Source of the DNA: Nordella sp. HKS 07
GTDB taxonomy: Bacteria > Pseudomonadota > Alphaproteobacteria > Rhizobiales > Aestuariivirgaceae
DNA: 64,000 bases
Assembly: GCF_011046735.1 (NCBI RefSeq)
Contig: NZ_CP049258.1
Location: 4,482,001 to 4,546,000, forward strand
Reading direction: 5' to 3'
Shown here: in pieces, positions 46,439-57,752 of the stretch
How positions within the stretch are numbered: the stretch's first letter is position 1
Layout: each line of letters begins with the position of its first letter
Notes under the pieces: generated by a model
What the model saw: only the letters and a program-made list of their open reading frames with translations
What the model was told of the DNA's origin: nothing
Database searches by the model: none
Position numbers and translations under genes: made by a program

Positions 46439-47857
46439 ATGAAAAATATTGACGATGTTTTGCAGGGTATCGATGGCGCCCTGGACGAAAGTATCGCGCG
46501 CCTTTTCGAGCTGCTCAGATTTCCCTCGGTCGGCACCGATCCGGCTTTTCACGGCGCCTGCCGTGACGCAGCGGCATGGCTCGTGCGCCTGCTCAGCGGC
46601 ATGGGATTCCAGACGCGCATGGACGAGACCACCGGCCAGCCGGTCGTTGTGGCTGAATATGCGCCCAAGGGCGTGCCGTCCCATGCGCCTCGCATCCTGT
46701 TCTACGGCCATTACGATGTTCAGCCACCCGACCCGCTGGACTTGTGGGAAAGCCCGCCTTTCGAGCCCCAGCTGCGCAAGGGTGCGGATGGTGAAGCGCG
46801 CATCTTTGCCCGCGGTGCCTGTGACGACAAGGGCCAACTCATGACCTTCCTGGAGGCCAGCCGCGCCTGGATCAAGGCCAAAGGCGGCCTGCCTTTCCAC
46901 CTCACCGTACTTCTCGAAGGCGACGAGGAGGGTGATTCTACTCATCTCGATCGTTATGTCGCGAAGAACCGCGCGCGGCTCAAGCCCGATATCGTCTTCA
47001 TCTGCGATACCGGCATGTGGGACGCCAGGACGCCCGCCATCACCACGCGGCTGCGCGGCTGCATCGCCGAGGAGATCGTCATTTCGGGGCCCTCCAAGGA
47101 TTTGCATTCGGGCTATTACGGCGGTGCTGCCCGCAACCCCATTCGCGTCCTGACAAAGATCCTGGGCGAGTTGCATGACCGCAATGGCCGGGTGACGCTG
47201 CCCGGCTTCTATGATGGTGTCGACCCGGTGCCGGCCTCGACCCGCCGGCAATGGAAATCCCTCAACTTTCCGGAGAAGAAGTATCTCAAGGCCGTCGGAC
47301 TTTCGGTGCCGGCGGGCGAAAAGGGCTATCCGGTCTATGAACAGATCTGGAGCAGGCCCACCGCCGAGATCAACGGCATCTATTCGGGCTATACGGGGGC
47401 GGGCTCCAAGACGGTGTTGCCGGCCGAGGCCATGGCCAAGCTCACTTTCCGCCTGGTCGGGCGCCAGACGCCGGCGCAGATCCGCAAAGGGCTGCGCGCC
47501 TTCGTCAAGGCCAGGCTCCCGGCCGATTGCCGGGTGCGTTACAAATCTGAAGGAGGCGATTCGATGGCGGCCACGGTGGCCGAGACGAGCCCCTGGGTGC
47601 GCCTGGCGCAAGAGGCTCTCACGGCCGAATGGGGCCGCGAACCGGTGCTGATGGCGGAAGGCGCCTCGATCCCGGTGGTCGGCACCTTCAAGTCATCGCT
47701 CAAGGTCGACAGCCTGCTGGTCGGATTCGGTCTTGAAGATGACGGCGCCCACAGCCCGAACGAAAAGTACAATCTGACGAGTTTCCGGAAAGGCACCAGA
47801 AGCTGGGCCCGCATCATCGCCGGCATTGCCGAACAACAGGAGCGCCGCAAATCATGA
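46439..47857 (+). CDS. M20 family dipeptidase
   Basis: A 472-residue metallopeptidase of the M20 dipeptidase (carnosinase-like) group. Di-zinc ligands are visible: FYGHYDVQPPDPLD near residue 97, ARGACDDKGQL near 130, LEGDEEGDST near 163 with the catalytic Glu, and GPSKDLHSGYYGG near 221 for the lid-domain His. Mature cytosolic enzyme, no signal peptide. The start ATG 46439 lacks a strong SD. It overlaps the paralogue behind it by ATGA. Confidence 0.92.
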   Translation: MKNIDDVLQGIDGALDESIARLFELLRFPSVGTDPAFHGACRDAAAWLVRLLSGMGFQTRMDETTGQPVVVAEYAPKGVPSHAPRILFYGHYDVQPPDPLDLWESPPFEPQLRKGADGEARIFARGACDDKGQLMTFLEASRAWIKAKGGLPFHLTVLLEGDEEGDSTHLDRYVAKNRARLKPDIVFICDTGMWDARTPAITTRLRGCIAEEIVISGPSKDLHSGYYGGAARNPIRVLTKILGELHDRNGRVTLPGFYDGVDPVPASTRRQWKSLNFPEKKYLKAVGLSVPAGEKGYPVYEQIWSRPTAEINGIYSGYTGAGSKTVLPAEAMAKLTFRLVGRQTPAQIRKGLRAFVKARLPADCRVRYKSEGGDSMAATVAETSPWVRLAQEALTAEWGREPVLMAEGASIPVVGTFKSSLKVDSLLVGFGLEDDGAHSPNEKYNLTSFRKGTRSWARIIAGIAEQQERRKS

Positions 47858-49251
47858 CCGACATCAACGCCGTTCTCGGCGCCGCCGACAAGGCGCTCGA
47901 CCAGAGCCTCGGGCGCCTGTTCGACCTCATCCGCATTCCATCGATCTCGACCGATCCCGCCTACAAGGCGGATTGCCGGCGCGCCGGCGAGCGCATCGTC
48001 GCCGACCTTGCCGCGCTGGGCTTCGATGCCTCTTTGCGCGAGACGGCCGGCCATCCGATGGTGGTCGCCCATTTCGCGCCGAAGGATACCGAGGGCAAGG
48101 TCCCGCATTTCCTGTTTTACGGCCACTATGACGTGCAGCCGCCCGATCCGCTCGACAAATGGATGACGCCGCCCTTCGAGCCTCAGAAGCGCACCGGCAA
48201 GGATGGCGTCGTGCGCCTCTATGGCCGCGGCACCGCCGACGACAAGGGCCAGCTCCAGACCTTCATCGAGGCGATGCGCGCCTGGATCACCGAGACCGGC
48301 TCGCTGCCGATCAAGGCCACGCTGCTGATCGAGGGCGAGGAGGAGTCGGGTTCGCCGAGCCTCATTCCCTTCCTCAAAGAGAACAAGGAAGAACTCGCCT
48401 GCGACGCCGCCTTCGTCTGCGACACGAATATGTGGGACGCCAAGACTCCGGCCATCACCACCAGGCTGCGCGGCATAGTGAAGGATGAGATCACCATCAC
48501 GGGGCCGCGCATCGATCTCCATTCCGGCGCCTATGGCGGGCCCGCCGCCAATCCGCTGCGCATTCTTTCGAAGCTCCTCTCGAAGCTCCACGACAAGAAT
48601 GGCAAGGTCACCATTCCGGGCTTCTATGACGGCGTCAGCGATCTCCCCAAGGAGATGAAGGCGCAATGGAGCAGGCTCAAATTTTCCGACAAGAAGTTTT
48701 TGAAGGAGGTCGGCCTGTCGGTGCCGGCGGGCGAGAAGGGAAAGAGCGTGCTCGAGCAGGTCTGGGCGCGCCCGACCGCCGAGGTGAACGGCATATGGGG
48801 CGGCTATACGGGGGCCGGCACCAAGACCGTCATCCCGTCCGAGGCCCACGCCAAGCTGACCTTCCGTCTGGTCGGCAAGCAAAATCCGCAAAAGATCCTC
48901 AAGGCGTTCCGCGCCTTCGCCAAGGCCGAGGTGCCGAAGGACTGCAAGGTCACTTTCGCTTCCTACGGGGCGGGAAGCCCGGCGACCGAGATCGCCGAAA
49001 CCTCGCATTTGATCCGCAAGAGTGCGCAGGCGCTGAAGGACGAGTGGGGCCGCGAGACGGCGCTCATCGGGTCAGGCGGCTCGATCCCGATCGTGCGCTG
49101 CTTCAAGGACATCCTCGGCATGGACAGTGTGCTGGTCGGCTTCGGTCTCAATGACGACGCACTGCACAGCCCGAATGAAAAATACAATCTCGCCAGCTTC
49201 CATCGCGGCATCAGAAGCTGGGTGCGCATCCTCGCGGCCGTCGGACGCTGA
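47854..49251 (+). CDS. M20 family dipeptidase (paralogue)
   Basis: A 465-residue M20 dipeptidase closely similar along its whole length to the upstream gene product: YGHYDVQPPDPLD, YGRGTADDKGQLQ, IEGEEESGSPS and GPRIDLHSGAYGG line up with its ligands, and both share VGLSVPAGEKG near the middle. The pair is an old tandem duplication, since many residues differ. The ATG overlaps the previous stop, so the two are co-translated. They could form a heterodimer, as M20 dipeptidases are dimeric; this is inference. Confidence 0.92.
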   Translation: MTDINAVLGAADKALDQSLGRLFDLIRIPSISTDPAYKADCRRAGERIVADLAALGFDASLRETAGHPMVVAHFAPKDTEGKVPHFLFYGHYDVQPPDPLDKWMTPPFEPQKRTGKDGVVRLYGRGTADDKGQLQTFIEAMRAWITETGSLPIKATLLIEGEEESGSPSLIPFLKENKEELACDAAFVCDTNMWDAKTPAITTRLRGIVKDEITITGPRIDLHSGAYGGPAANPLRILSKLLSKLHDKNGKVTIPGFYDGVSDLPKEMKAQWSRLKFSDKKFLKEVGLSVPAGEKGKSVLEQVWARPTAEVNGIWGGYTGAGTKTVIPSEAHAKLTFRLVGKQNPQKILKAFRAFAKAEVPKDCKVTFASYGAGSPATEIAETSHLIRKSAQALKDEWGRETALIGSGGSIPIVRCFKDILGMDSVLVGFGLNDDALHSPNEKYNLASFHRGIRSWVRILAAVGR

Positions 49252-49291: not shown

Positions 49292-49509
49292 AAACATATG
49301 CGATATCAATGGGTTGGTTTTTTCTCGGCCGCGGCTGATCCAGGGTCAATTTGCCCATATGCGAAAAAACCCAAGTCCTCCCGGGACATGTGTTTTTAGA
49401 GAAATGTCATCCGGTCGTCATAATTTGAGAAATGCCGGGAATAGAACCCGGATCGCTCCGTTCTTCTCTTCGCGCTGCTTGAACGCGCGAGAAAAGAACA
49501 GGAGTTTGA
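49292..49509. promoter_or_regulatory. Leader region of the phosphate/VTC cluster
   Basis: About 220 bases before the DUF4956 gene. It contains an imperfect inverted repeat (GTTCTTCTCTTCGCG around 49460-49474 against CGCGCGAGAAAAGAAC at 49485-49500) and AGGAG before the ATG at 49510. No PHO box could be identified with confidence. Confidence 0.4.
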
Positions 49510-50106
49510 ATGTTGATATCCTCGCTTCAACAGGTCCTTGAGGACCCGACACTCTCGCAAGCGGTCAGGATAGGTTTGAATCTCGTCGGGATGAGCGCGC
49601 TCGTCTTCGGCCTCTATTACCGCCGCTACCGCGACAAGGAACTGGTCACCGCCGCGGCGCTGTTCAACATATTCATCTTCGCGGTCCTGACCATTCTGTC
49701 CTCGGTGAATTTCAGCGTGGCCGCGGGCTTCGGCCTGTTCGCCATACTGGCGCTGTTCACGCTGCGCTCGGAGCCGCTGAGCAAGACCGAGATGACCTAT
49801 TTCTTCGGCAGTGTCGCCATCGCGGTCATCACCTCGGTGCATGGAACGACGGTTCCTTTCGCCGTCATGGCGGTGGGCTTCGTCCTCGCCGGCGCTTTCG
49901 TCATCGACCATCCGCGCATCCTGCAATCGGTCTCCGGCGCCAAGGTGACGCTCGACAAGATCAATACCGATCTGCTGGCGGACCCCGTTTCCATGCGCGC
50001 CGAATTGTCGGACCGTCTCGGCGTCGCGGTTCTCTCCTATCAAGTGCTTCAACTCGATTACATCACGGAAATGGCGAGGCTCAATGTCTACTATCGCACG
50101 CGCTGA
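49510..50106 (+). CDS. DUF4956 membrane protein
   Basis: A 198-residue membrane protein of the DUF4956 family, with four or five helices (LVGMSALVFGLYYRRYRDKE, then FNIFIFAVLTILSSV, FGLFAILALFTLR, MTYFFGSVAIAVI, AVMAVGFVLAGAF) and a cytosolic C-terminal part (KVTLDKINTDLLADPVSM). DUF4956 genes are very often paired with VTC-domain genes, as here, where the VTC gene overlaps by 23 bases. It is probably the membrane partner of the VTC protein, perhaps a polyphosphate channel or anchor; that role is inference. Confidence 0.88.
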   Translation: MLISSLQQVLEDPTLSQAVRIGLNLVGMSALVFGLYYRRYRDKELVTAAALFNIFIFAVLTILSSVNFSVAAGFGLFAILALFTLRSEPLSKTEMTYFFGSVAIAVITSVHGTTVPFAVMAVGFVLAGAFVIDHPRILQSVSGAKVTLDKINTDLLADPVSMRAELSDRLGVAVLSYQVLQLDYITEMARLNVYYRTR

Positions 50107-50911
50107 CCAATGGCTGGAGCAGGGCTTCGATCCGATCGGCCTTGCCACGCTCAACGCCCGGGCGGAGATGCTGGAGCGGCTCGACAACAAATACGTGGTG
50201 CGCAGGCCCGTTCTGCAGGCGGCCGCCGCCGAACTTGCCCGCCATTTTGATGTGCTCGAGATCTCGGGCCGCCGCGCCTTCACCTACGAGACGTGTTACT
50301 TCGACAACCAGGACCGGCGCAGCTATTTCGACCACCATCAGGGTCGGCGCCGGCGCGCCAAGGTGCGCATCCGCAAATATCTCGATGCGGCGCTGTGCTT
50401 CGTCGAGGTGAAACTCAAGGACAAGCGCGGCGTGACGGTGAAGAGGCGGTTTGGCTATGCGCCAGAGAAATTCGGCAGGCTGGATGATGAAGCGCTCACT
50501 TTCGTTCACCGTGCCTATTACGATCAATATGGCGCCGTGTTCCCCCATGAGCTGCAGCGGGTCATCGACATGCGCTATGTCCGCATGACGCTGGTGGCGA
50601 AGGAGGGCGGCGAGCGCATGACGATCGACAGCTCTCTGCGCTTCTACGATATGGCCGCCTACCATGCCGTCGATGACGATCACTTCATCCTGGAGACCAA
50701 GTCGGCCCGCGGCAATGGCATCGCCGACCGTCTGCTGCGCGCCCTGCATCAGCGCCCGACCAAGCATTGCTCGAAATACTGCACCGCGATCGCGCTTCTC
50801 AATCGCGGCACCAGGCACAATCGATTCCTGCCGGCCTTGCGCAAGCTCGCAAGTCCGGATCTGTCATCCCTGAAACCGGCCGCCCGGCCCGAAATGGAGG
50901 CGCTGCAATGA
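50084..50911 (+). CDS. VTC-domain polyphosphate polymerase-like protein
   Basis: A 275-residue VTC-domain protein of the CYTH-like tunnel fold; yeast Vtc4 uses this domain to make polyphosphate from ATP. The charged tunnel residues are present: LERLDNKYVVR near residue 30, YFDNQDRRSYFDHH near 72, RRRRAKVRIRKY near 88, CFVEVKLKDKRG near 107, DSSLRFYD near 184 and FILETKSARG near 203. No transmembrane segment, unlike the yeast complex; the membrane part is probably the DUF4956 protein. Coupled to both neighbours by overlaps. Confidence 0.88.
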   Translation: MSTIARADQWLEQGFDPIGLATLNARAEMLERLDNKYVVRRPVLQAAAAELARHFDVLEISGRRAFTYETCYFDNQDRRSYFDHHQGRRRRAKVRIRKYLDAALCFVEVKLKDKRGVTVKRRFGYAPEKFGRLDDEALTFVHRAYYDQYGAVFPHELQRVIDMRYVRMTLVAKEGGERMTIDSSLRFYDMAAYHAVDDDHFILETKSARGNGIADRLLRALHQRPTKHCSKYCTAIALLNRGTRHNRFLPALRKLASPDLSSLKPAARPEMEALQ

Positions 50912-51852
50912 CACTCAAGACTGGAAATCTCATCGGCGGGCTGGCCGTGGCCGCGCTCCTGCTAGGGACCGCCGCTCTGCCGGGTGCCTCCGCCGAGCCG
51001 AAGCTCGAAGCCCTGGGGAAGACGGAGATCCCCGCCACCGGCAAGGATGGCGTACGGGTCGACGAGCTTTCCGGCCTGGCGTGGGATGCGGATGAGAAGC
51101 TTCTCTATGCCGTCTCGGATGGCGGCGTCCTGCATCATTTCCGCCTTCAGCTGGACGGCGACAGGATCGCCGGGATCGAGCATGTCTTCGCGGCGCCGAT
51201 CTCGGCTCCTATCGGCAATGTGTCGGCAACCAACGCCGAAGGACTTTCCGCCGTCAATAGCGATGACGGCACGCCCGGCAACAGCGAGCTCCTGATCGCC
51301 TTCGAAGATGGGCCCGGCATCGCCCGCTTCACGCCGAAGGGCCAATGGATAGCCGATGTCGCATTGCCGGCTCCCCTGGCCGACGCGACGAGCTATGCCA
51401 AGAAGAACAGTCGCCTGGAGGCGGTCGCGTTCGACAAGGTCCATGGCATTCTGACGGCCCCGGAACGGCCCCTGCGCGGCGAACCGGATACGGCGCACAA
51501 GGTCTATGCCGGAAATGGCGCGACCTGGGCATTCGATGCCGCGCAGCCCGATGGCCGTCTCAAGGCGATCGAGACGATGGCCGATGGCAGCCTGCTGGTG
51601 CTCGAGCGCACGGCCGAGGAGAAGGGCGGCCCCCGGACGGCGCATCTGCGCCACCTCGATATCGCGTCCTGCCCGGCGGACGGACAATGTGTCGCGCCCG
51701 ACCTCTCGGCCACGCCCGACCCGCTGCTGGTGGACAATTTCGAAGGCCTGACCCGCCTGTCCGAGAGACTCTTCCTCATCGTCACCGACCGGACAAAGAA
51801 AGACGTGGAACCGACGAGCTTCGTGCTGTTCAAGCTGACCAACGCGAAGTAA
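50908..51852 (+). CDS. Secreted phytase-like esterase (PF13449-type)
   Basis: A 314-residue exported protein with a signal peptide (MTLKTGNLIGGLAVAALLLG, cleaved near ASA). The body is a beta-propeller-like phytase-like/esterase-like domain: VDELSGLAWDADEKLLYAVSD near 50, NAEGLSAV near 108, the acidic ELLIAFEDGPGIARF, RLEAVAFD near 170 and LVDNFEGLTRL near 280. Such proteins are named after sequence likeness to phytases, and activity is not proven for most. The ATG overlaps the VTC gene stop (ATGA). In this setting release of phosphate from organic phosphates in the periplasm is plausible. Confidence 0.8.
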   Translation: MTLKTGNLIGGLAVAALLLGTAALPGASAEPKLEALGKTEIPATGKDGVRVDELSGLAWDADEKLLYAVSDGGVLHHFRLQLDGDRIAGIEHVFAAPISAPIGNVSATNAEGLSAVNSDDGTPGNSELLIAFEDGPGIARFTPKGQWIADVALPAPLADATSYAKKNSRLEAVAFDKVHGILTAPERPLRGEPDTAHKVYAGNGATWAFDAAQPDGRLKAIETMADGSLLVLERTAEEKGGPRTAHLRHLDIASCPADGQCVAPDLSATPDPLLVDNFEGLTRLSERLFLIVTDRTKKDVEPTSFVLFKLTNAK

Positions 51853-51897
51853 TGACGGCGATGACCGCGACCTTCCATTCCCGCTAAGGATCCCGAA

Positions 51898-52524
51898 ATG
51901 TTCTCCCTTCAGACGATATTCGGCTCGGGCAAGCAGTTCTACGAGCTCCTCGACGCCGCCGCCGTGTCGGCCCATGACAGCGCCAAGGCCCTGCACAGGA
52001 TGCTGGACCCGGCTTCGAACGACAAGGGCCTGGAAGAGATCAAGCTCGCCAGGCAGCGCCAGAGAGAGGCGACGAACAGGATCAGCCAGGCGCTGGTCGA
52101 TATCTTCATCACTCCCATCGAGCGCGAGGATATCGAGGAGCTGCGTGTGGCGCTCTATAAGATATCCAAACAGGTCGAGCGCTTCGCCGACCGCTATACA
52201 TTCGCCGCCCACCGGCTTGAGGGTGTCGATTTCGCGCCGCGCGCCGCCATGCTGGAAAAGGCCACCCAGATCGTTCTCGACATGGTGCGCGAACTCCCGC
52301 GTCTCAAGCTCGAGACGATCAAGTCGCTCGATGACCGCCTCCATGCGATCGAGACGGAGGCCGACCGCCTGTTGCTCGAGCTCTATCGAGAACTCTATTC
52401 CGGCGATCTCGACGGCGCCCGCATGTTTCTGCTCAAGGAGTTCTTCGAGATCCTGGAAAAGGCGATCGACCGCTGCCGCGACGCGGGCGCCATCGTCTAT
52501 CAAGTTGCGCTGAAGAACAGCTGA
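51898..52524 (+). CDS. DUF47/PhoU-like Pit accessory protein
   Basis: A 208-residue all-helical protein of the TIGR00153/DUF47 family, distant relatives of PhoU that are nearly always encoded next to PiT phosphate transporters. It has repeated heptad-rich helices with conserved acidic metal-binding pairs (AHDSAKALH near 25; FITPIEREDIEELR near 75; EIETEADRLLLELYRELYS near 150). Cytosolic. It lies 45 bases after the phytase-like gene and 161 bases before the PiT gene, and probably controls that transporter. Confidence 0.92.
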   Translation: MFSLQTIFGSGKQFYELLDAAAVSAHDSAKALHRMLDPASNDKGLEEIKLARQRQREATNRISQALVDIFITPIEREDIEELRVALYKISKQVERFADRYTFAAHRLEGVDFAPRAAMLEKATQIVLDMVRELPRLKLETIKSLDDRLHAIETEADRLLLELYRELYSGDLDGARMFLLKEFFEILEKAIDRCRDAGAIVYQVALKNS

Positions 52525-52619
52525 CGAGTGACTGTTCCATGCGAAGTCTCAACTCAACCCAATTTCCCCAAAAATCTCTCCGAACGATGAGCGCTGGCCG
52601 ACTTGCACTTACTCAATGG

Positions 52620-52639
52620 ATCCCGGCTTTCGCCGGGAT
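52620..52639. repeat. Short palindromic element before the PiT gene
   Basis: ATCCCGGC-TTTC-GCCGGGAT forms an eight-base stem inside the 161-base gap between the DUF47 and PiT genes. Sequences of the form 'GGATCCCGGCTTTCGCCGGGATGACG' are widespread repeats in alphaproteobacteria as I know them. It may lower read-through to the PiT gene or be a mobile short repeat. Confidence 0.6.
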
Positions 52640-52685
52640 GACGAGGTGGGAGAGCGCGCGTATTAATGAGGGCGGTCATTAACCC

Positions 52686-53804
52686 ATGCTGATCCTTGTC
52701 CTGACCGTTGTGCTGATGGCGCTCGTCTTCGAGTTCATCAACGGCTTCCACGACACGGCGAACTCCATTGCCACCGTGGTCGCCACCAAGGTCTTGTCGC
52801 CGGCTCAGGCCATCATGCTGGCCGCCGTCACCAATCTGATCGGCGCTTTCTGGGGCACCGCTGTGGCGAAGACCATCTCCTCGGGGCTGGTCGACACAGG
52901 CGTGGTCAATGTCACGCTGCAAGTGATCCTGTGCGCGCTGCTCGGTGGCATCATCTGGAATCTCTTCACCTGGTGGCGTGGCCTGCCATCCTCATCCTCG
53001 CACGCCTTGATCGGGGGTCTTTGCGGCGCCGCGCTTGCCGCTGCCGACAACAACTGGAGTGCTCTCATCTGGTCGGAGTCCGTCGGCGACTGGACCAAGA
53101 ATCAGGGTCTTCTGTGGAAGGTGCTGCTGCCGATGGTGACTTCGCCGGTGGCGGGCTTCACCTTGGGCATCATCATGATGGTGGCATTGTGGGCGCTGAT
53201 TTCGGGGCTGGCGAAGGCCGGCGGGCCGCTTGCACGTCTCGCCCGTCCCCTCTGGGTCAATGCCATCTTCGGCAAGGCGCAGCTCGCTTCCGCCGCCTAT
53301 ATGGGGCTCGCGCATGGCCGCAATGACGCGCAGAAGACCATGGGCATCATCGCGCTCGCTCTATTGGGCGCGGAGAGCGCCGGCGCGCTCCAGGGCTTGC
53401 CGGAATGGGCGCGCTTTCTCGAGCCCGATGCCGGCAGCGACGGCATCGACAGCTGGATCATCGTCTCTTGCGCGCTCGTCATGGCGGCGGGCACGGCGGC
53501 GGGCGGCTGGCGCATCATCAAGACGCTCGGCCATAAGATGGTGAAGCTGCATCCGATCCATGGCTTCGCCGCCGAGACGAGTTCGGCGACGATCCTCACG
53601 GTCGCCGCGCATTTCGGCATGCCGGTCTCGACCACCCACAGCATATCGACGGCGATCATGGGTGTCGGTTTCGCCAAGTCCTCGCGCGCCCTCAAATGGA
53701 CGGTGATCGAGCGCATCGTCTGGGCCTGGATACTGACCTTCCCCGCCGCCGGCGGCCTGGCCTATGGCCTGCACTGGCTGCTCGAGCTGGTGGGGTGGAA
53801 CTGA
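52686..53804 (+). CDS. Inorganic phosphate transporter, PiT family
   Basis: A 372-residue membrane protein with about ten helices. The two PiT signatures are intact: FINGFHDTANSIATVVATK near residue 18 and AHGRNDAQKTMGIIAL near 210, each with the GxxDxxN/xND core that binds phosphate and metal. The DAxxxS-type TTHSISTAIMG near 320 is also typical. It imports phosphate as a metal complex with protons. The ATG at 52686 lacks a clear SD. It closes the phosphate cluster and ends in a shared hairpin. Confidence 0.94.
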   Translation: MLILVLTVVLMALVFEFINGFHDTANSIATVVATKVLSPAQAIMLAAVTNLIGAFWGTAVAKTISSGLVDTGVVNVTLQVILCALLGGIIWNLFTWWRGLPSSSSHALIGGLCGAALAAADNNWSALIWSESVGDWTKNQGLLWKVLLPMVTSPVAGFTLGIIMMVALWALISGLAKAGGPLARLARPLWVNAIFGKAQLASAAYMGLAHGRNDAQKTMGIIALALLGAESAGALQGLPEWARFLEPDAGSDGIDSWIIVSCALVMAAGTAAGGWRIIKTLGHKMVKLHPIHGFAAETSSATILTVAAHFGMPVSTTHSISTAIMGVGFAKSSRALKWTVIERIVWAWILTFPAAGGLAYGLHWLLELVGWN

Positions 53805-54600: not shown

Positions 54601-54813
54601 GGGGAGGAAGAAACCTCGGTGGGGGATGGGAGCCGTACAAACCCGTACATTTCCACAATGGCCTGTCTAAAACAAGGCAAGTCCTGCTGTATAGCGGCAA
54701 CGCCCGGCCAAAGAATGGCGGTTTGCCCGCTCGCGGCGCAACTGCGACACGCGCCACATGATGAAGCCACGGCACCCCGATTGCGGGCGCGCCGTTATGG
54801 AGCGGAACTCATC

Positions 54814-56955
54814 ATGTATCGATTATTGCTGACCCTGCTGGGCGTCATCGCCATGACGCTCAGCGCCGGCGCCGGCCTCGTCACGCCCGCGCAAATGGGC
54901 ACGGGCGCTTTGCTGCTCGACACCAACGAGCCCGGGAAATTTGTCGAGGCGCCTCGGGTCGCCACTGATCTCGACATCACCGTGACCGGTCCCATAGCCC
55001 GGACGCGAGTCACGCAGCAGTTCAAGAACCCGACCGATGGCTGGATCGAAGGCACTTATGTATTTCCCTTATCAGAGAAGGCGGCCGTCGACAGCCTCAG
55101 CATGGTGATCGGCGATCGCATCGTCGTCGGTGAGATCAAGGAACGGCAGGAAGCCAAGCAGATCTATGAGGAGGCCAAGGCCAAGGGGCAGAAGGCGGCA
55201 CTGCTCGACCAGGAGCGCGCCAATGTCTTCACCAGCCAGGTCGCCAATATCGGGCCTCGCGAGACCGTCGTCATCCAGATCGAATATCAGGAACCGGTGG
55301 CCCAGTCGGGCGGCCTCTTCTCGCTGAGGATCCCGACCGTCGTGGCGCCGCGCTACGTGCCCGATCCCACACTGACGGTGTCAGAAAACGGGCAGTTCTA
55401 CACCGTAAAGGACAGCATTCCGGACCGCGACCGCGTCACGCCGCCGGTGCTCGATCCGCGCGGGAACGCGCCGGTCAATCCCCTGACTCTTACCGTCCGT
55501 CTCAATCCTGGCTTTGCGCTGGGCGAGGTCGCGAGCTCCTTCCATGACGTGATCGCCGAAGCCTTGCCCGGGGGCGGCAAGACGATCACCCTGGCGCGCG
55601 CCGAATTCGCCGATCGCGACTTCGAGCTCACCTGGAAACCGGCACAAGGGGCTGCCCCCGAGATCGGCCTGTTCAGCGAAAAAGTGGACGGTGCCGATTA
55701 TGCGCTGGCCTATGTGATGCCGCCCGCCGCGTCGGCGCCCGAAAAACGTGTCCCGCGCGACGTGGTCTTCGTCATCGACAATTCGGGCTCGATGGGCGGC
55801 CCGTCGATGTCGCAGGCGAAAGCGAGCCTCCTCTATGCGCTGGGCCGGCTCGACCCGGCCGACCGCTTCAATGTCATCCGTTTCGACGACACGATGGATA
55901 TACTTTTCACCGACACGGTGATGGCCAACCACGACAATGTCGAGACGGCGAAGAAATTCGTCGGCCGGCTCGAAGCCTCGGGCGGCACCGAGATGATAGC
56001 GCCTCTGCGCGCCGCCCTGCGCGACGCGAGACCTGATGATGAAAGCACGCTCCGCCAGGTCGTGTTCATCACCGATGGCGCCATCGCCAATGAGCAGGAG
56101 ATGTTCGACGTCCTGAGCGCGATGCGCGGCCGCTCGCGCGTCTTCATGGTGGGGATCGGCTCGGCGCCGAACTCCTATCTGATGACGCGCGCCGCCGAGC
56201 TCGGCCGCGGCAGCTATGCGATGATCGGCGAGGGTGGCCAGGTCGAGGACCGCATGCGCGAGCTCTTCGCCAAGCTTGAAAACCCAGCGGTCACACATCT
56301 CAAAGCGACCTTCGATCAGGCTTCGGCGGACGTGACGCCGTCCCTGTTACCTGACATCTATCAGGGTGAGCCGGCGCTTTTCCTCATGAAGATGCCGGAG
56401 CGCAAGGGCGCCGTGACGCTGTCCGCCAGGATCGCCGGACGCGACTGGCAGGTGAGTGTACCGCTCGCTGATGCGAAACCGGGCTCAGGCATTGCCAAGC
56501 TCTGGGCCCGGCGCATGATCGACGATGCCGAAGTGGCGCGGACGGTCGGCGCCATCACGCCCGAAGAGGCGGACAGGCGCATCCTGGCGCTCGCCCTCGA
56601 GCATCATCTGGTCAGCAGCGTATCGAGCCTCGTGGCGGTCGACAAGACGCCGTCGCGCCAGCCCGGCGAGAAGCTCAGCCGCGCCGACATACCGCTCAAC
56701 CTTCCAGTCGGCTGGGACTATGACAAGGTCTTCGGCAAAGAGGACAACCCGGACGTGCTCGAACGCGATGCGAAGCTCGACGTCACGCTGATCGCGATGC
56801 GCAAGTCGCCGGAGAGCCGGCAGGCGAATGCGATGAAGACCGTCGACCTGCCGCAGACGGCGACGCCGGCGGAGCTGCTGATGCTCCTGGGCGCGCTGCT
56901 GTCGATCCTGGCGCTGGTCTTTGCATTCCTCGCCCGCCGCGCGAGGCTCGCATGA
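54814..56955 (+). CDS. VIT/vWA-domain sortase target protein
   Basis: A 713-residue surface protein of the 'marine proteobacterial sortase target' group. After a signal peptide (MYRLLLTLLGVIAMTLSAGA) there is a VIT (inter-alpha-trypsin inhibitor) domain (VTGPIARTRVTQQFKNP to TYVFPLSEKAAVDSL), then a vWA domain with an intact MIDAS (VVFVIDNSGSMGGPSM near residue 315). The C-terminus is a sorting signal: LPQTATPAELLML, a hydrophobic helix and RRARLA. ATG 54814 is chosen over longer in-frame extensions. The class GN sortase gene overlaps by ATGA. Confidence 0.93.
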   Translation: MYRLLLTLLGVIAMTLSAGAGLVTPAQMGTGALLLDTNEPGKFVEAPRVATDLDITVTGPIARTRVTQQFKNPTDGWIEGTYVFPLSEKAAVDSLSMVIGDRIVVGEIKERQEAKQIYEEAKAKGQKAALLDQERANVFTSQVANIGPRETVVIQIEYQEPVAQSGGLFSLRIPTVVAPRYVPDPTLTVSENGQFYTVKDSIPDRDRVTPPVLDPRGNAPVNPLTLTVRLNPGFALGEVASSFHDVIAEALPGGGKTITLARAEFADRDFELTWKPAQGAAPEIGLFSEKVDGADYALAYVMPPAASAPEKRVPRDVVFVIDNSGSMGGPSMSQAKASLLYALGRLDPADRFNVIRFDDTMDILFTDTVMANHDNVETAKKFVGRLEASGGTEMIAPLRAALRDARPDDESTLRQVVFITDGAIANEQEMFDVLSAMRGRSRVFMVGIGSAPNSYLMTRAAELGRGSYAMIGEGGQVEDRMRELFAKLENPAVTHLKATFDQASADVTPSLLPDIYQGEPALFLMKMPERKGAVTLSARIAGRDWQVSVPLADAKPGSGIAKLWARRMIDDAEVARTVGAITPEEADRRILALALEHHLVSSVSSLVAVDKTPSRQPGEKLSRADIPLNLPVGWDYDKVFGKEDNPDVLERDAKLDVTLIAMRKSPESRQANAMKTVDLPQTATPAELLMLLGALLSILALVFAFLARRARLA

Positions 56956-57752
56956 GTGCCGGTATCGACGAGATGCCGGCCTTCTGGATGCGGCGCTCGC
57001 GCCGCGCCCGCAAGGCGCTGCGGGAACTGCGGGAGCGCATGGGTGTGATGGGAGACGTTGCTGTCGTCCCACCCGACGCTTCACGCGCGGCGACTGGCGA
57101 ACGTAGCGAGTCGAATGGAGCCGAACGACGCAAAACCTGTCCGGCGCTGTTCTTCATCGCCTCGCTCCTCTGCGCCGCCCTGGGTATGGGGCTCCTCGGC
57201 GAAGGCCTGTGGATCAAGGCCAAGGCGGGTCTGGCGCAGATCCTGCTCGACCGCGCCTTCGCCGCGAGCATCGCCACCGGCAAGCCGGTCAAGCCCTGGA
57301 GCTGGGCCGATACCTGGCCGGTGGCGCGCATCTCTGTGCCGCGACTGCAGGCCTCCGCGATTGCGCTCGCCGGCGGCAGCGGCCAGGCGCTGGCTTTCGG
57401 TCCAGGCCACCTTGCGCAGACTCCGAGGCCAGGCGAGCGCGGCACATCGGTGTTCGCCGCGCATCGCGACACGCATTTCCGCTTCCTCGGCGATCTCAAG
57501 GTGGGTGACGAGATCAGGATCACCCGCGATGACGGCATCACCTTCACCTATGAGATGACGGGCGCCGATATCGTGCGCTGGGACCAGTCGGAGATCGACG
57601 CCGGTGCCGCGGGCTATAATCTGGCGCTCGCTACCTGCTGGCCTCTGGACGGCACGCTCGCCGGCCCCTTGCGTTATGTCGTGCATGCAAGATTGAAACC
57701 GACATCCATGTTCGGCGGTAGCCGGCACATTGCCCGGGCTGGGCTCTATTGA
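56952..57752 (+). CDS. Class GN sortase
   Basis: A 266-residue membrane transpeptidase of the Gram-negative (class GN) type. A basic N-terminal region (RRSRRARKALRELRERM) and one membrane helix (ALFFIASLLCAALGMGLL, near residue 68) precede the sortase barrel with its catalytic His (VFAAHRDTHFRF), Cys (ALATCWPLDGTL) and Arg (LRYVVHARLKP). It should cut the LPQTA signal of the preceding protein. The pair TIGR03788/TIGR03784 is known; the attachment point in the envelope is not. Overlap ATGA makes it a dedicated pair. Confidence 0.93.
   Translation: MSAGIDEMPAFWMRRSRRARKALRELRERMGVMGDVAVVPPDASRAATGERSESNGAERRKTCPALFFIASLLCAALGMGLLGEGLWIKAKAGLAQILLDRAFAASIATGKPVKPWSWADTWPVARISVPRLQASAIALAGGSGQALAFGPGHLAQTPRPGERGTSVFAAHRDTHFRFLGDLKVGDEIRITRDDGITFTYEMTGADIVRWDQSEIDAGAAGYNLALATCWPLDGTLAGPLRYVVHARLKPTSMFGGSRHIARAGLY

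Follow-up and report, generated by a model that had tools for sequence, protein, structure and literature searches.

A run of five plus-strand genes was analysed in the soil bacterium Nordella sp. HKS 07, within a 64,000-nucleotide stretch of contig NZ_CP049258.1 (positions 4,482,001 to 4,546,000), hereafter called the window. The genes encode, in this order, a DUF4956 membrane protein, a vacuolar transporter chaperone (VTC) domain protein, a PF13449 protein, a DUF47 protein and the phosphate transporter PiT (window 49510-53804; Table 1). The DUF4956 and VTC genes overlap by 23 bases, the VTC and PF13449 genes share an ATGA, and gaps of 45 and 161 bases lie before DUF47 and PiT, respectively. 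Positions and profile matches agree with the five genes, overlaps and gaps given in an earlier first-pass annotation of this DNA, which had named VTC as the first gene, whereas DUF4956 comes first and VTC second. The PhoB box upstream of DUF4956 is a new element that had been missed. The set centres on a bacterial counterpart, little studied so far, of the yeast enzyme that makes polyphosphate. Comparison across genomes suggests that this recurrent set is an overlooked bacterial phosphate-handling system.

Table 1. Features of the candidate phosphate-handling operon (window coordinates)
Feature	Position	Strand	Details
PhoB box ATGTCAT-CCGG-TCGTCAT, 11/14	49404..49421	+	88 bases upstream of DUF4956 start codon
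DUF4956 membrane protein, 198 amino acids	49510..50106	+	PF16316, 150 bits, E 5e-44
VTC-domain protein, 275 amino acids, predicted cytoplasmic polyphosphate polymerase	50084..50911	+	PF09359, 114 bits, E 1e-32
PF13449 "phytase-like" protein, 314 amino acids, signal peptide, predicted periplasmic phosphoesterase	50908..51852	+	94.5 bits
DUF47/PhoU_div, PhoU-like accessory protein of PiT (OrfA type), 208 amino acids	51898..52524	+	PF01865
Strain-specific insertion between DUF47 and PiT	52525..52685	.	Palindromic repeat at 52622-52642
PiT inorganic phosphate transporter, short type, 372 amino acids	52686..53804	+	PF01384, 308.6 bits

The PF09359 match covers residues 32-239 of the VTC protein, at a cut-off of 23 bits, and the PiT protein covers the full PHO4 domain (profile 1-350 of 350). 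The DUF47 protein matches PF01865 slightly below the Pfam cut-off of 24.4 (22.9 bits, E 6e-5), and its position beside PiT supports the call; DUF47 adjoins PiT in the genus members that retain PiT, and such placement is typical. No RNA family reached the gathering threshold in the operon region. The Nordella sp. HKS 07 genome (7.18 Mb, one contig), which falls in the GTDB genus of Taklimakanibacter lacteus, holds one VTC gene, one PiT match and one PPK1, and VTC is therefore not its sole polyphosphate route, because an ordinary ppk1 is present as well.

To follow the set beyond this strain, 84,980 species genomes were scanned with the DUF4956 subfamily; locus counts refer to the best 80 of at least 112 loci, which come from alpha-, beta- and gammaproteobacteria, and neighbours were counted within 5 kb. 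The first-pass annotation put forward the pairing of DUF4956 with VTC as common in bacteria; VTC adjoins DUF4956 in 76 of the 80 loci. The other four comprise two loci at contig ends and two from Candidatus Nitrotoga (L118 and L120). Both Nitrotoga loci carry a DUF4956 of the same subfamily and no VTC in the surrounding DNA examined; in L120, a Na/Ca exchanger follows and, further on, a Na/phosphate cotransporter. VTC is uncommon in the class (7/385 genomes). Since DUF4956 and VTC co-occur in the identical 5 of 60 relatives, and since two further members of the genus retain the full five-gene order, their association is not a matter of chance. PF13449 was found near 31 and PiT near 11 of the 80 loci, with about 0.2 expected for each (flanks totalling 717,585 bases, at a density of about 0.25 per Mb for each family), so that the link to PiT noticed in a single strain extends beyond it. 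After clustering of DUF4956 at 85% identity, PiT occurs in 9 and PF13449 in 18 of 42 clusters. By profile search, a Porin_O_P (OprP/OprO-type) porin lies near 7/80 loci. The relatives that carry loci of the subfamily include Thauera, Rubrivivax, Hydrogenophaga, Nitratireductor and Rhodobacteraceae.

The gene orders vary among loci, with VTC-PiT-PF13449 in Nitratireductor, Ruegeria and Aliiroseovarius, and elsewhere PF13449-VTC-PiT, PiT-DUF4956-VTC-PF13449 and, in L083, a divergent PiT. Some loci have a short-type PiT and others a long-type one. Because the orders differ and PiT is of two types, the linkage probably has several origins. In Aminobacter, Shinella and Nitratireductor, a DUF4956-VTC-PF13449 cassette lies on large plasmids, and on annotated Nitratireductor and Aminobacter plasmids the sets bear the names "polyphosphate polymerase domain-containing", "inorganic phosphate transporter" and "esterase-like activity of phytase".

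Genes for sensor kinases and response regulators also recur near the loci, as do those for small EF-hand or Asp-rich secreted proteins. In L087, L088, L106, L111 and others, DUF4956-VTC stands beside an EF-hand or Asp-rich secreted protein, a degenerate ATP-binding cassette (ABC)-type protein, another protein that matches nothing in Pfam, and a two-component system; Asp-run proteins are found in L113 and its relatives as well. A calcium link is possible for loci with EF-hand or Asp-rich proteins. In L065, L153, L154 and others (Aminobacter, Nitratireductor), genes for an extracytoplasmic function (ECF) sigma factor, an anti-sigma factor and an S8 subtilase lie just upstream of the DUF4956 operon.

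Within the genus, two members (G001 and G003) have the complete five-gene set in unchanged order between the same flanks, namely two M20 peptidases upstream and, downstream, an XRE-type regulator together with a vWA/sortase pair. All five genes show ratios of nonsynonymous to synonymous substitution (dN/dS) of 0.04-0.2. In a third member, G002, a deletion runs from inside PF13449 to inside PiT: DUF47 is gone entirely, most of PF13449 is lost and PiT is reduced to a 41-residue tail (L008 5790-7355). DUF4956 and VTC are intact there, with dN/dS against the window of 0.13 and 0.16, which denotes purifying selection, and no second PiT was found in the G002 genome. PiT is thus optional for the DUF4956-VTC pair, on which purifying selection still acts in G002 even though PF13449, DUF47 and almost the whole of PiT are gone. 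In G004 (87% complete), the locus lacks DUF4956, VTC and PF13449, and an M20 gene is followed at once by DUF47-PiT, an arrangement that may be either the older state or a deletion. Two blocks, DUF4956-VTC(-PF13449) and DUF47-PiT, are therefore separable, because G002 keeps the pair and G004 keeps only DUF47-PiT. The first-pass annotation had seen in the locus a phosphate capture and storage system; its phosphate theme is supported, but one obligate five-gene pathway is not, as G002 retains DUF4956-VTC without PiT.

A rival reading holds that a mobile DUF4956-VTC-PF13449 cassette landed by accident upstream of a housekeeping DUF47-PiT operon. Such an accidental neighbourhood would fit G004, where an M20 peptidase gene directly precedes DUF47-PiT with no cassette, and the carriage of the cassette on large plasmids; it is nevertheless improbable, as PiT is linked in several other arrangements, of which VTC-PiT-PF13449 is an example. 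The 161-base gap before PiT represents an insertion, because the same junction measures about 10 bases in G001, G003 and G004. It contains a palindrome, CCCGGCTTTCGCCGGGATGAC, with 26 exact and 18 one-mismatch copies genome-wide, against 0 for a control pattern. The copies often form inverted pairs about 78 bases apart, resembling doublets of repetitive extragenic palindromic (REP) elements, and one of them lies inside the operon. An independent promoter and terminator in this gap had been named beforehand as a finding that would speak against a single operon, and the scan found no promoter- or terminator-like site.

Matches to the PhoB consensus CTGTCAT-N4-CTGTCAT were counted over 14 scored positions. 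The score of the window box was reached by 2 of 1000 shuffles, and the block around the box is conserved in all four genus members having the operon. Upstream of DUF4956, matches of at least 11/14 occur in 34 and of at least 12/14 in 22 of the 80 loci, while at the latter threshold controls from the same loci gave 6 of 790 segments taken at random and 2 of 174 regions upstream of other genes (both one shared site), the latter regions also being listed as two at exactly 12 matches plus two at 13. Among 420 arrangements of its letters, CTGTCAT comes out on top, and when spacers of 0-15 are compared, enrichment is found only at 4 and at 15, the latter equal to one further repeat. Many sites run to three to five half-sites with an 11-base period, and the boxes occur in both orientations among the loci. 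There is accordingly strong evidence in the upstream sequences for predicted PhoB control of the DUF4956 subfamily as a group, and moderate evidence for such control through the site of the window itself.

The VTC protein was compared with yeast Vtc4, which a profile of 55 bacterial VTC sequences matches in the PDB. The first-pass annotation had let its reading hinge on the tunnel residues, and all mapped residues of the Vtc4 tunnel are conserved. Ten positions are identical in 55/55 sequences (Vtc4 R196, K200, R264, R266, K281, R361, R373, E426, K428 and K458), and the position of K294 is matched in 51/55. The mapping of E426, K428 and K458 comes from a weak second alignment block, the motif of which is nevertheless invariant. 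The structural model (predicted local distance difference test, pLDDT, 90) finds its best PDB match in Vtc4 (3g3r, Z 16.5, 209 residues, 3.1 Å). Pfam recognises no domain in the protein other than VTC, and neither an SPX domain nor a hydrophobic segment is present, so that the SPX and C-terminal transmembrane domains of a eukaryotic-type polymerase subunit are both absent. From these sequence and model data, it is predicted to be a soluble cytoplasmic polyphosphate polymerase.

The same fold class includes the triphosphate hydrolases of the CYTH/TTM kind, and a protein of this sort has to be considered. Four basic residues of Vtc4 that guide the chain are reported to have glutamates as their counterparts in a hydrolase (PMC4641920). 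At these acidic-patch positions, as mapped from sequence alone, the bacterial protein has three basic residues and one acidic residue, D34, and R32, K120/R122 and K206 correspond to basic residues of Vtc4. The best structural matches are likewise all VTC subunits, placed above the CYTH enzymes, the best of which is Escherichia coli ygiF (Z 13.7). With D34 and the shared fold on its side, but the three basic positions and the ranking against it, a hydrolase is very unlikely.

The AlphaFold model of DUF4956 (mean pLDDT 80, moderate) has helical membrane segments, with an alpha/beta domain at the C terminus. No solved relative was found by profile and neither a VTC membrane subunit nor another convincing fold among the structural matches, and a profile comparison with MgtC, whose alignment was poor, gave no match. 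For the third protein, PF13449 is the only match above the cut-off, an NCBIfam phytase model reaching E 0.12, and no relative was found among solved structures. An N-terminal hydrophobic signal is present in 33/33 linked PF13449 proteins, and seven acidic residues (E53, D71, E111, E133, E171, E279 and D294) are invariant, which suggests a metal site. A phytase identity is not justified by a signal peptide and conserved acidic residues with no solved relative. In Thauera phenolivorans (L077, 10610-12412), VTC, a hydrophobic segment and PF13449 are all encoded in a single in-frame open reading frame; this frame fits a VTC domain inside and PF13449 outside, although an internal start codon is also possible.

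Taken together, the locus is probably a PhoB-controlled phosphate-handling operon that combines a VTC polymerase, a DUF4956 partner, a PF13449 phosphoesterase and DUF47-PiT import. VTC would polymerise phosphate from ATP into polyphosphate on the cytoplasmic side of the membrane, and DUF4956 would be its membrane partner, anchoring VTC or passing the chain through the inner membrane, a role played in yeast by the membrane parts of the VTC complex. The secreted PF13449 protein would act as a periplasmic phosphoesterase freeing phosphate, which DUF47-PiT would import. DUF4956-VTC would then be the core, with PF13449, PiT and, elsewhere, an OprP/OprO-type porin as optional partners. The polymer may be an intracellular store filled in phosphate plenty, or a periplasmic chain exported and then reclaimed. 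The export version would best explain why genes for a phosphoesterase with a signal peptide, for an importer and for a phosphate porin recur beside the pair. In its full form, it would be a periplasmic phosphate bank under PhoB, in which VTC and DUF4956 push polyphosphate across the inner membrane, PF13449 cuts it and PiT reimports the phosphate; this elaboration is speculative and, on present evidence, rather doubtful.

Several observations weigh against the operon reading as a whole. PiT is absent near most of the 80 loci, as is PF13449, and G002 retains DUF4956-VTC despite the loss of the other three genes. D34, always acidic, sits where Vtc4 has T198 and leaves one position hydrolase-like, and no recognisable relation was found between DUF4956 and the yeast VTC membrane domain, an absence that is not proof. 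Two further points bear on whether PhoB would activate or repress: a consensus -10 at the distance from the boxes seen in activated Pho promoters was not found, and the orfA-pit operon of Sinorhizobium meliloti, a DUF47-PiT pair, is reported to be repressed upon phosphate starvation (PMC3131613).

These last two points favour a luxury-uptake store, in which PhoB would repress the operon, PiT would bring phosphate in and VTC would lock it into intracellular polyphosphate in times of plenty. PiT is a low-affinity carrier, which suits this alternative. It overlaps with the favoured operon reading and differs in control direction and polymer site. A secreted phosphoesterase, however, suits starvation more than plenty, and the boxes, whose usual role in the Pho regulon is activation, are present also at loci without PiT; the store is possible, though somewhat unlikely.

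Elsewhere, DUF4956-VTC occurs together with CotH and polysaccharide genes; the pair may therefore have a broader job, which also counts against the operon reading. VTC with DUF4956 might help to add phosphate or short phosphate chains to a surface polymer instead of making free polyphosphate, as the DUF4956-VTC-CotH trios of G011, G163, G356 and G246 and the CotH-VTC-DUF4956 genes that Gram-positives carry next to Pel genes (PMC7112168) could indicate. Within the subfamily, however, CotH lies near only 3/80 loci and polysaccharide synthesis genes do not recur, whereas phosphate transport genes and PhoB boxes do, and a role in surface polymers is unlikely here.

Around the operon of the window, tandem M20-type peptidase genes, about 57% identical, lie directly upstream (46439-49251), and a vWA-domain protein and sortase-type gene pair, judged from reading the sequence only, lies just downstream (54781-57752). 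The glycerophosphodiesterase mentioned in the first-pass annotation is a real gene (PF03009, 58536-59522), but it stands on the opposite strand with four genes between, and nothing indicates that it is part of the system.

Polyphosphate in bacteria is usually credited to PPK1/PPK2. The VTC set adds another candidate of wide distribution: its Vtc4-type active site is intact, a dedicated membrane protein goes with it, and it has a PhoB motif and recurrent ties to phosphate transport. If the operon reading is true, it would explain what many genes named "polyphosphate polymerase domain-containing protein" and "DUF4956" do, give membrane-coupled polyphosphate synthesis a simple model of two genes and be relevant to phosphorus retention in soil, marine and wastewater bacteria. 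A periplasmic bank, if real, would be a bacterial VTC-type membrane-coupled polyphosphate cycle separate from PPK1. The natural deletion in G002 offers a ready-made test of whether DUF4956-VTC works without PiT. The DUF4956-VTC pair and its CotH context are already on record (PMC7112168), and of the open-access papers covered by the search, 3 mention DUF4956 and 2, both on eukaryotes, PF09359; in that literature, subscription papers being outside its scope, no description of the PiT/PF13449 linkage or the PhoB boxes was found.

Among known systems, the yeast VTC complex (Vtc4 with Vtc1/Vtc3) shares with the bacterial set the tunnel fold, all mapped catalytic and chain-guiding residues and the tie of a polymerase to a membrane protein. 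It differs in that the bacterial VTC protein lacks the SPX and transmembrane parts, that its membrane partner is DUF4956, which showed no relation to Vtc1/Vtc3 in sequence or fold, and that phosphate transport genes accompany the bacterial ones. The S. meliloti orfA-pit operon resembles by description the last two genes, as a DUF47-PiT pair with a PHO box; its name contains no DUF4956, VTC or PF13449, and it is reported to be repressed on starvation (PMC3131613). The PhoX/Psip1 beta-propeller phosphatases have in common with PF13449 conserved, possibly metal-binding acidic residues and a context of phosphate starvation (PMC11098088), but PF13449 is another family, and neither an activity nor a structure for its clade was found in the sources searched. 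A parallel in gene content is the CotH-polyphosphate polymerase-DUF4956 group beside Pel operons (PMC7112168), which has the same DUF4956 and VTC families in the same pairing, while CotH and polysaccharide genes replace PF13449, PiT and the PhoB boxes; the CotH-type proteins compared show 13-16% identity to the DUF4956 of the window and about 20% to its VTC protein.

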